In this document: positions 5,091-10,038 of the stretch, piece by piece
Numbering within the stretch: position 1 is the stretch's first letter
Layout of the letters: every line of letters begins with the position of its first letter
IMG/VR virus record: IMGVR_UViG_3300046753_000142
Coordinates: 1-21,291 of that record
Length of the DNA stretch: 21,291 nt
Direction: 5' to 3' (one strand)
Source of the DNA: a virus
The notes under the pieces: model-generated
What the model was told of the DNA's origin: nothing
The model's input: only the letters and a program-made list of their open reading frames with translations
The model's database searches: none
Position numbers and translations under genes: made by a program

Positions 5091-6167
5091 ATGACCGCTA
5101 CTTTATCCAGACCACAACAACAGAATACTTGGGAAGCCTTTTGCAAATGGGTTACCTCAACAGACAATAGGCTTTATGTAGGTTGGTTTGGGATCCTTAT
5201 GATTCCAACACTATTAGCCGCAACCATCAGCTTCATCATTGCATTTGTTGGAGCACCACCCGTTGACATCGACGGTATCCGTGAACCAGTCGCAGGCTCT
5301 CTACTCTATGGAAACAACATCATCAGTGGGGCCGTCGTCCCCTCTTCCAACGCAATCGGATTACATTTCTACCCAATTTGGGAAGCTGCTTCGCTTGACG
5401 AATGGCTCTACAACGGTGGCCCGTTCCAACTGGTCATCTTCCACTTCCTCATTGGCATCTATGCTTACATGGGACGAGAGTGGGAACTTAGTTATCGATT
5501 AGGAATGAGGCCCTGGATTTGTGTTGCATACTCAGCGCCCGTGGCTGCAGCGTCAGCAGTCTTTCTTGTCTATCCATTTGGACAAGGTTCTTTTTCAGAT
5601 GCAATGCCTCTCGGGATTTCCGGCACGTTTAATTACATGCTCGTCTTCCAAGCTGAGCATAATATTCTTATGCATCCATTTCATATGCTTGGTGTTGCCG
5701 GCGTATTTGGTGGGTCTTTGTTTTCTGCTATGCACGGTAGCCTTGTCACGTCTTCTCTCGTTCGTGAAACTACTGAACAGGAAAGCCAGAACAAGGGTTA
5801 CAAGTTTGGTCAAGAGGAAGAAACCTATAACATCGTAGCTGCTCATGGATACTTTGGTCGTCTTATTTTTCAGTACGCTTCTTTTAACAACAGCCGTAGT
5901 CTCCACTTCTTTCTGGCAGCTTGGCCTGTTGTTGGTATCTGGTTTACTGCTCTTGGTGTGTCTACCATGGCTTTCAACCTAAACGGATTTAACTTTAATC
6001 AATCGATTGTCCATGGCGGACATGTCATTAATACATGGGCTGACATCCTGAACCGTGGTGGTTTGGGTATGGAGGTCATGCATGAGCGTAATGCTCATAA
6101 CTTCCCCCTTGATCTTGCAGCAGCTTCTACTACTGAAGTAGCACTGTCTGCACCTACTATTGGATAA
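5091..6167 (+). CDS. psbA: Photosystem II reaction centre protein D1 (phage-borne)
   Basis: This 358-residue D1 is intact, with five membrane segments, and binds the P680 chlorophylls, the Mn cluster and QB. Key residues are present: E130 (the Glu form), Tyr161, D170, H190, H198, H215 and H272. The C-terminal Mn ligands follow as H331, E332, H336, D341 and A343, each one position below standard numbering. The lumenal segment before INTWAD reads QSIVHGGHV, one residue shorter than the usual host form with D-S-Q-G-R. The 15 residues after A343 are the extension normally removed by host CtpA. The product would replace damaged host D1 and keep photosynthetic energy flowing during infection. No intron interrupts it. 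No Shine-Dalgarno sequence precedes the ATG; the leader is AT-rich with a stem-loop at 4991-5023. Confidence 0.98.
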
Positions 6168-8452: not shown

Positions 8453-8604
8453 TGATTACTTTAATTCGACCAATCCTTATGAACTTCCTTGTAAGTCGTA
8501 GGGTAAAAGAACTTCTAGTTGAATTGCTAGAAGCACTTGCTAAGAAAACTGAAAATAAATTGGATGACGTTGTTGTCGCCCAAGTACGTTCAGCACTACT
8601 TTAA
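8452..8604 (+). CDS. Small amphipathic protein, 50 residues
   Basis: The ATG overlaps the previous stop (TAATG). The protein begins MITLIRPILMNFLVSRRVKE and continues as a Leu/Glu/Lys helix, then KLDDVVVAQVRSALL. The N-terminus is hydrophobic with basic residues, too short for a sure membrane span, and the rest is amphipathic. It may interact with the membrane protein encoded just before it. No family is recognised. The stop lies immediately upstream of the riboswitch-like element. Confidence 0.65.
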   Translation: MITLIRPILMNFLVSRRVKELLVELLEALAKKTENKLDDVVVAQVRSALL

Positions 8605-8605
8605 C

Positions 8606-8672
8606 TCTTCGTACGTTTATCCTTCGGGACGCATGATGACACAGTATGAAACGGGACTGTGTTTAACGGAGA
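8606..8672 (+). promoter_or_regulatory. Glutamine-riboswitch-like RNA (Downstream-peptide type) with pseudoknot
   Basis: The element lies between two small genes. Stem P1 pairs CGTTT (8614-8618) with AAACG (8649-8653). Inside it a TTCG-capped stem pairs TCC (8620-8622) with GGA (8627-8629), followed by GACGCATGATGAC. A seven-pair pseudoknot joins ACACAGT (8639-8645) inside P1 to ACTGTGT (8656-8662) just outside it. This order, the CGTTYATCC...GGACG core and the small ORF 17 bases downstream match my memory of the glnA/Downstream-peptide RNAs of cyanobacteria and cyanophages, which bind glutamine. TCTTCGT (8606-8612) can also pair with ACGGAGA (8666-8672), covering the GGAG ribosome site at 8668-8671. 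Confidence 0.75.
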
Positions 8673-8678
8673 TCTATC

Positions 8679-8795
8679 ATGACCCAAGTACAAGTCCGCA
8701 ACATCATGAATACTAAGGCAGAAGCCTCTCGTAAAGAGAAGGAAGTATGTCTAGTGTATCGCGGTACTGCATACAAAAAACAAGTGACTGTGTAA
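8679..8795 (+). CDS. 38-residue peptide controlled by the riboswitch-like RNA
   Basis: The ATG is seven bases after GGAG (8668-8671), one of the clearer ribosome sites in the window. The peptide opens MTQVQVRNIMNTKAEASRKE and ends VYRGTAYKKQVTV. It is basic, with a charged helix followed by a Y-R-G-x-x-Y stretch resembling the short DUF4278 proteins of cyanobacteria and cyanophages. Its position makes it the downstream peptide expected for this riboswitch class, so its level probably follows host glutamine. In cyanobacteria a related RNA controls a glutamine synthetase inactivating factor. Whether this peptide touches nitrogen metabolism is unknown. Its last codons lie inside the next folded element. 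Confidence 0.72.
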   Translation: MTQVQVRNIMNTKAEASRKEKEVCLVYRGTAYKKQVTV

Positions 8796-8827
8796 GCACA
8801 GAGGCAGGTGCAACTCCTGCCGTCACT
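8783..8827 (+). ncRNA. Compact three-way-junction RNA resembling tRNA acceptor plus T-arm
   Basis: Sixteen perfect pairs fall within 45 bases. The outer stem is AGTGAC (8783-8788) with GTCACT (8822-8827). The first arm is TGTG (8789-8792) with CACA (8797-8800), whose loop holds the peptide stop codon. The second arm is GGCAGG (8803-8808) with CCTGCC (8816-8821), around the 7-base loop TGCAACT. That loop differs from the tRNA T-loop consensus TTCRANY only at its second base. As in tRNA, the arm runs directly into the outer stem's 3' strand. There is no anticodon or D arm, so it is not a tRNA gene. Confidence 0.55.
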
Positions 8828-8831
8828 CTAT

Positions 8832-8871
8832 GGCTTTCAGCCGGTACGCCGATACCTGATTGCCAAATCGG
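8832..8871 (+). other. Further potential hairpins before the capsid gene
   Basis: GGCT (8832-8835) pairs with AGCC (8839-8842). CCGAT (8849-8853) pairs with ATCGG (8867-8871) around 13 bases, or alternatively GGTA (8843-8846) pairs with TACC (8853-8856). The stems are weak and only three T follow, so a terminator is unlikely. They may extend the structured RNA at 8783-8827. Confidence 0.3.
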
Positions 8872-8872
8872 T

Positions 8873-8902
8873 TTGACAATTAAATACATTTGAGACTCTA
8901 AT
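8873..8902 (+). promoter_or_regulatory. Sigma-70-like promoter candidate before the capsid gene
   Basis: A perfect TTGACA (8873-8878) is followed after 18 bases by TCTAAT (8897-8902), one mismatch from TATAAT. Transcripts would start near 8909 with a leader of about 44 bases. It overlaps the shared 20-base word at 8877-8896, so the two readings compete. Confidence 0.35.
8877..8896 (+). promoter_or_regulatory. Candidate phage promoter, copy B (shared 20-base word)
   Basis: CAATTAAATACATTTGAGAC matches 16 of 20 bases of 4981-5000. It lies 56 bases before the major capsid gene. With the terminator at 10398-10423 it would delimit a capsid transcription unit comparable to T7 phi10 to T-phi. Confidence 0.4.
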
Positions 8903-8952
8903 TATTCTAGATCATTTGGAGTAAACAATATACACATTATTTTTTAAATATC

Positions 8953-10038
8953 ATGACTGCTACTGCAGGTACACCTCCGAATTCTACGCCAACTCCGCTT
9001 GGCTCTATTAACTCTACACCTCAACTAGCTCTTAGTACTGCTACTTCAACAGCTAAGGGTTACCAGCCAGGTGATGCTACAGGCAAATATGCCACATACC
9101 TGAAACTCTTTTCGGGTGAAATGTTCAAGGCTTACGAGTCCGCTTGTATCGCTAAGGGCACCGTCCAGAACCGTACACTTACCAACGGTAAGTCTATGCA
9201 GTTCATCTTCACTGGCCGTATGACGGCTGATTACCACACCCCTGGAACTCCGATTCTTGGTAGTGGTGATCCCCCAGTGGCAGAGAAGACCATCGTCATG
9301 GATGACCTGCTGATCAGTTCAGCATTCGTCTACGACCTTGATGAAACTCTTGCTCATTATTCATTGCGTGGTGAGATCTCTAAGAAGATCGGCTATGCAC
9401 TGGCTGAAGCATATGACAAAAAAATCTTCCGTACTGTTGCACTTGCTGCACGTGAAGCACATCCAATCACTGCTGCACCTGGTCCTGAGCCCGGTGGTTC
9501 AACCATTGCTCTTGGTGCTGGTAATCAGTACAATGCTCAAAGTCTCGTAGATGGCTTCTTTGAAGCTAGCTCGATTTTGGATGAGAAGAATGTACCCCGT
9601 GAAGGTCGCTTTGCTGTACTGTCACCACGTCAGTATTATGCATTGATCTCTCAGGTTGATAGCAACATCCTTAACCGTGACTACGGAAACACTCAGGGCA
9701 ACCTGAACTCCGGTGAAGGTCTCTATGAGATTGCTGGTATCTCTATCAAGCGTTCTAACAATCTGCCATTCATGTTGGGTGGTGGAAATGTTACTGCTGT
9801 TGCTGGTGAGAACAACTTCTATGGTGGTGACTTCTCAGCTCATGCTGGTTTGATCTATCAGAAAGATGCTGCTGGTGTTGTTACTGGTATTGGTCCTTCT
9901 GTTCAGACCACTGGTGCTGACGTGAAGACCATGTATCAAGGTGACATCATTGTTGGTCGTCTTGCTATGGGTGCAGGTACTCTGAACCCTGCTGCTGCTA
10001 TTGAGCTGTGGGCTGCTGATACCGTTGCTTATTCCTGA
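8953..10038 (+). CDS. Major capsid protein, T7 gp10-like
   Basis: The 361-residue length is close to T7 gp10A (345) and the HK97-type fold is expected. It builds the icosahedral shell. Typical cyanopodovirus capsid segments are visible: YLKLFSGEMFKAYESACIAK (about residues 49-68), then GKSMQFIFTGRMTADYHTPG, DLDETLAHYSLRGEISKKIG, REGRFAVLSPRQYYALI and IAGISIKRSNNLPF. The N-terminal about 40 residues are Thr/Pro/Ser-rich and probably flexible. C-ending codons (ATC, TTC, AAC, CGT) are commoner here than in the tail and internal protein genes, as expected for a very abundant product. No Shine-Dalgarno sequence sits near the ATG; a GGAG at 8918-8921 is too far away. Confidence 0.95.
   Translation: MTATAGTPPNSTPTPLGSINSTPQLALSTATSTAKGYQPGDATGKYATYLKLFSGEMFKAYESACIAKGTVQNRTLTNGKSMQFIFTGRMTADYHTPGTPILGSGDPPVAEKTIVMDDLLISSAFVYDLDETLAHYSLRGEISKKIGYALAEAYDKKIFRTVALAAREAHPITAAPGPEPGGSTIALGAGNQYNAQSLVDGFFEASSILDEKNVPREGRFAVLSPRQYYALISQVDSNILNRDYGNTQGNLNSGEGLYEIAGISIKRSNNLPFMLGGGNVTAVAGENNFYGGDFSAHAGLIYQKDAAGVVTGIGPSVQTTGADVKTMYQGDIIVGRLAMGAGTLNPAAAIELWAADTVAYS

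Follow-up and report, generated by a model that had tools for sequence, protein, structure and literature searches.

Positions 8606-8678 of the window, a virus record of 21,291 bases analysed over its whole length, very probably constitute a Glutamine-II riboswitch. From the computational evidence, the element would lie in the leader that precedes a 38-codon gene, and glutamine would open a helix (P0) and so permit translation. The window has the gene layout of a T7-like cyanophage, with psbA at 5091-6167 and a Gp10A-like major capsid gene at 8953-10038, and the virus is a podovirus of marine cyanobacteria. The Glutamine-II class is already known and the window element adds a member to it. RNA sensing of a host metabolite by phages has rarely been documented. 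Many cyanopodoviruses, among them the model phage P-SSP7, have the sensor at one fixed place among their late genes, so that the reading of host nitrogen status by a phage during infection becomes testable in the laboratory.

The class of the element was assigned with Rfam. Family RF01704 (Downstream-peptide, i.e. Glutamine-II) matched 8611-8661 on the plus strand over model positions 1-60 of 60, with a score of 35.0 bits and an E-value of 2.5e-5 (whole window searched). It is the sole Rfam family reaching its gathering level anywhere in the window, although it exceeds that level (33 bits) by 2 bits only. In a permissive search of 8500-8800 all other Rfam matches were far below their cut-offs, and Glutamine-I (glnA, RF01739) gave no match in this interval even at E up to 10. 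The first-pass annotation had proposed a mixed "Downstream-peptide/glnA" class, with the Rfam models as a check: the Downstream-peptide half of this label is borne out by the match above gathering, and the glnA half is to be dropped. According to the literature, Glutamine-I has part of its glutamine-binding sequence in common with Glutamine-II and is built on a three-way junction with a loop E. The folding energy of the aptamer is unremarkable (z -0.60); as it is not significant, the case rests on the profile match, conservation, covariation and synteny.

The anatomy of the aptamer was described with the residue numbering of the crystal structure 6QN3, the mapping being taken from PMC6698751. 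On the plus strand, the 5' strand of the pseudoknot, CGUUU (C1-C5, C5 being U here), lies at 8614-8618 and is followed by A6 (8619), by the P1 hairpin UCC-UUCG-GGA at 8620-8629 (stem 8620-8622/8627-8629, loop 8623-8626) and by the core C17-G18-C19-A20 at 8630-8633, in which G18 contacts glutamine and C19 pairs with G41 (8632:8654). The two strands of P2 are ACACAGU (8639-8645) and ACUGUGU (8656-8662), and a G-U at 8638:8663 extends them. Between them, also on the plus strand, the conserved segment A33 to G42 (8646-8655) includes the 3' pseudoknot strand AAACG (8649-8653), with A33 at 8646, G35 at 8648, G36 at 8649 (A here) and A37-A38-C39-G40-G41-G42 at 8650-8655. All the structural parts reported in the first-pass annotation are present in the sequence, namely a UUCG-capped hairpin within a 5-bp helix, a crossing 7-bp stem and an ATG at 8679: the 5-bp stem is the pseudoknot helix 8614-8618/8649-8653, which encloses the UUCG hairpin, and the crossing helix is P2. 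In 6QN3, glutamine is contacted by C1, G18, C39 and G40, and the pairs C19:G41 and A33.G42 are formed (PMC6698751). These contact residues and pairs are all retained in the window, which has the whole core and contact set (C1, G2, U3, G18, C19, A33, G35, A38, C39, G40, G41 and G42). The pseudoknot pair C5:G36 is replaced by U8618:A8649, a compensatory change. The construct that was crystallised as 6QN3 carries a UUCG-capped P1 as in the window, and the pseudoknot and P2 are common to both.

The distribution of the element was analyzed in 80 viral contigs with related capsid genes, to which further loci were added by a pattern scan. RF01704 was above cut-off in 31 of the 80 capsid-bearing records (19/50 and 12/30), and below it in more of them. 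The pattern scan gave at least 124 parsed aptamers, at least 114 of which are distinct. Among the 114 distinct aptamers listed, C1, G2, U3, U4, G18, C19, A20, A33, G35, A37, A38, C39, G40, G41 and G42 are invariant, partly by construction since the parsing pattern demands some of the core letters and no fewer than 4 pairs in P2. In the same 114 aptamers every P2 pair is canonical, with as many as 6 pair types at a position, the P1 pairs vary and covary, and the pair C5:G36 is C-G in 111 cases and U-A in 3, one of which is the window; neither the variety of P2 pairs nor the C5:G36 double change is a product of the parsing pattern. The first-pass annotation had suggested looking for covariation across cyanopodoviruses, and such compensatory changes are indeed present in P2 and in the pseudoknot pair, beside the covarying P1. 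Seventeen T7-like isolates were also considered. Nine are above the RF01704 cut-off (NATL1A-7, S-RIP2, S-TIP37, S-TIP28, 9515-10a, NATL2A-133, P-SSP7, S-CBP1 and S-CBP4), two have a match below it (S-SBP1 and S-CBP3), and Syn5, P60, S-CBP42, S-SRP01, 7B11-B and DSL-LC07 have no match. In most relatives the aptamer keeps a fixed place 5' of the capsid gene, mostly at 230-390 nt.

We also observed variant Glutamine-II aptamers in which the long-range pair C19:G41 is swapped to G19:C41 (CGGG...GGAACGCGC), with the YRG peptide still downstream. They are found at loci L061, L063, L065, L069, L425, L439, L446, L489, L498 and L517, and in isolate S-CBP3 (L261). As judged from sequence, their ligand may be changed or unchanged.

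The direction of control was approached through P0, a further helix of 7 bp which had not been separately named in the first-pass annotation. In the centroid fold its 5' strand UCUUCGU (8606-8612) pairs with ACGGAGA (8666-8672), both on the plus strand, and the latter contains the Shine-Dalgarno sequence of the peptide ORF (GGAG, 8668-8671). Over the 113 distinct flank pairs listed, the mean best pairing of 5' and 3' flanks was 9.42, compared to 7.24 +/- 0.30 in 200 shuffles (maximum 8.04). At the loci listed, the P0 score of the window (15.8) is reached by 23.7% of the matched flank pairs and by 3.3% of the mismatched ones. The P0 strands found elsewhere (UUCGUAC/GUACGAA, UACCUUA/UAAGGUA and UAUCUAGUA/UACUAGGUA) are quite different in sequence from one another and from those of the window, which indicates covariation at the minority of loci concerned. 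Between about one quarter and two fifths of the listed loci show P0 clearly, so that it is no universal platform.

The location of P0 over the Shine-Dalgarno sequence suggests that the peptide is under a translational switch of the ON type. When glutamine is absent, the 5' flank would pair with the Shine-Dalgarno region and the small ORF would be poorly translated. Glutamine would stabilise the CGUUU/AAACG pseudoknot, the C19:G41 pair and P2. As C1 would be followed by C19:G41 and then by P2 in this coaxial stack, linkers of 1 nt and 3 nt would be left to span it, so that ligand binding and P0 would compete; P0 would open and the ORF would be translated. Such a competition agrees with the ON direction described for Glutamine-II RNAs, a Prochlorococcus Glutamine-II riboswitch having been reported to activate expression (PMC6316151, PMC6698751). 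The reverse direction, in which a true Glutamine-II aptamer would act as an OFF switch, P0 stacking with the bound fold and glutamine closing the Shine-Dalgarno sequence, is unlikely. P0 can coexist topologically with P1 and P2, and all three are present in the centroid fold, but the reported activation goes the other way, and on the 6QN3 topology the two linkers seem too short to bridge the ligand-bound stack between C1 and the end of P2.

It is still less probable that the aptamer is a relic, or has been re-specialised, and does not bind glutamine any more. The score near threshold would fit such a reading, as would the G19:C41 subclass, which shows that the core can drift; against it, the contact residues are all intact, the single pseudoknot change is compensatory, and the downstream ORF is under purifying selection across the set of listed aptamers (pN/pS 0.26 in close pairs).

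This ORF extends from 8679 to 8795 on the plus strand and begins 17 nt past the end of the aptamer. Its 38-aa product, MTQVQVRNIMNTKAEASRKEKEVCLVYRGTAYKKQVTV, ends in VYRGTAYKKQVTV and consists of a DUF4278-like single YRGxxY module (YRGTAY in the window; phrog_5049, E 0.0016). A Y[RKS]...Y ORF, nearly always YRGxxY, follows 121 of the 124 parsed aptamers listed, and a short downstream ORF of the YRG type is likewise found in the Glutamine-II class. A Pfam search with the window peptide gave no match. For five of its relatives DUF4278 (PF14105) was the top match, at 14.1-19.6 bits, below the cut-off of 25.3 bits, and tblastn of the 38-aa peptide in phages returned just four weak matches. Host references came from a scan of a genome collection with the core pattern, which gave mainly chance matches and from which two Prochlorococcus loci were retained; the two Prochlorococcus genomes contain 3 and 5 Glutamine-II copies. 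Several of these host copies precede proteins with two or three YRG modules that match DUF4278 at 32-43 bits, above the cut-off. From this comparison, the phage peptide resembles the longer host protein with one module instead of several. In the glutamine synthetase inactivating factor IF17, DUF4278 forms the N-terminal part (PMC6316151). The DUF4278 proteins (PF14105; IF17 N-terminal part, PMM1846) combine the YRGxxY motif with glutamine-riboswitch control, as in the window, but the phage peptide has a single module and stays below the Pfam cut-off. The peptide may act on host nitrogen metabolism, a role also supposed for its DUF4278 relatives.

The most likely target of control is the YRG peptide gene, rather than the capsid gene, which lies a further 291 nt away. 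The fixed position of the aptamer 5' of the capsid gene could be accounted for if the switch reached beyond the peptide and acted on the capsid gene or the late operon, through transcription termination or the stability of the RNA. We nevertheless consider such control very improbable, slightly more so than the loss of glutamine binding, and capsid control by the switch is not indicated. The plus strand contains no terminator-like site from 8661 to 8953 (aptamer to capsid gene), so that control probably acts locally, at the level of translation. The switch sits directly at the Shine-Dalgarno sequence of the peptide, and almost all the listed aptamers have kept this peptide. Moreover, the capsid genes of Syn5, P60, S-CBP42 and others have no aptamer, yet keep their own leader RNA. 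Finally, chance resemblance, with which the folding energy would agree, can be dismissed in view of the E-value, the synteny, the covariation, the conserved peptide and the count of 0/14 control genomes over the RF01704 cut-off.

Some relatives of the window element contain a gene nested in the aptamer. In 19 of the 124 parsed aptamers listed, a distance of 167-193 nt separates the core from the 5' pseudoknot strand upstream of it, and one ORF of 54-60 codons makes up the P1 loop (for example at loci L160, L107 and L239, and in isolate S-SBP1, L254 1492-1685); the same locus is compact in the window, where the loop is UUCG. The nested ORF starts 9-17 nt after C1, in or adjoining the P1 5' strand, close by the strand of the pseudoknot. 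In 15 of the 19 cases its stop codon (UGA or UAA) begins 3 nt after G18, giving the core GCAUGA or GCAUAA. P1 pairing is retained around the ORF, with up to 12 pairs at one locus, and Rfam scores these aptamers below cut-off. The ORF has a dN/dS of 0.03-0.21 in the closest pairs, and its protein matches phrog_628 and is annotated SSBP1_gp32 in S-SBP1. Among its 80 closest homologues in viral contigs, a sample chosen for closeness to the query, 78 are nested in an aptamer that precedes a YRG ORF, and the other two stop at or near a contig edge. Distant free-standing relatives occur in T4-like cyanophages, and no aptamer was seen around these. No report of the nested arrangement was found in the literature searched, which included few subscription papers.

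In this cyanopodovirus lineage the glutamine riboswitch thus holds a whole gene inside it; that it would also switch the two genes in opposite directions is a proposal for which we see the chances as evenly balanced. Glutamine binding would hide the start of the nested gene while freeing the downstream peptide, and translation of the nested gene would unfold the aptamer. These relatives raise a new question, namely how a riboswitch and a translated ORF share nucleotides.

Compared to the Glutamine-II reference (RF01704; 6QN3), the window element has the full-length profile match and the core and contact nucleotides in common. It differs by its location in a T7-like cyanophage beside a capsid gene, by the U:A that replaces C5:G36, by an ORF that encodes one YRG module in place of the longer host DUF4278 protein and by the P0 helix that covers the Shine-Dalgarno sequence. 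Glutamine riboswitches have been reported in T4-like cyanophages and in the methylophage Melnitz (PMC9964418, PMC9602691, PMC9004378). These aptamers are phage-borne like that of the window, but belong to other phage groups and occupy other positions; in Melnitz a glnA-like aptamer is located at the tmRNA gene, unlike in the window.

Two other folded elements were observed between the peptide and the capsid gene, with a combined z of -3.53, and neither was matched in Rfam. The first, at 8783-8827, is tRNA-like: an outer helix stands beside a stem whose loop resembles a tRNA T-loop, and the peptide stop codon lies in its side hairpin. ARAGORN finds no tRNA gene at 8780-8830, where a weak tRNA-Sec-like Rfam match is far below gathering. 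In NATL1A-7 a real tRNA-Gly stands where this element would be. T-loop-like hairpins are present in 66 of 98 capsid leaders, and another hairpin (ACCUCAGAGU) in 16. One might guess at a processing role, for example through RNase P. The second element, at 8831-8865, is a hairpin whose internal loop is asymmetric (C / AYAM); it is found 5' of the capsid gene in most cyanopodovirus relatives. Over 51 sequences, 10 of its 11 pairs are changed on both sides, and its covariation score is 0.597 versus at most 0.11 in slid controls; part of this set was picked by pairing ability, which inflates the percentage of paired cells and not the variety of pairs. An imperfect palindrome is also visible at 8895-8922, before the capsid gene, and is perfect in many relatives (CTCTGACGTCAGAG and others). 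The ORF at 361-726 of the window shows a zinc-finger/HNH-like pattern which, by eye, is endonuclease VII-like.
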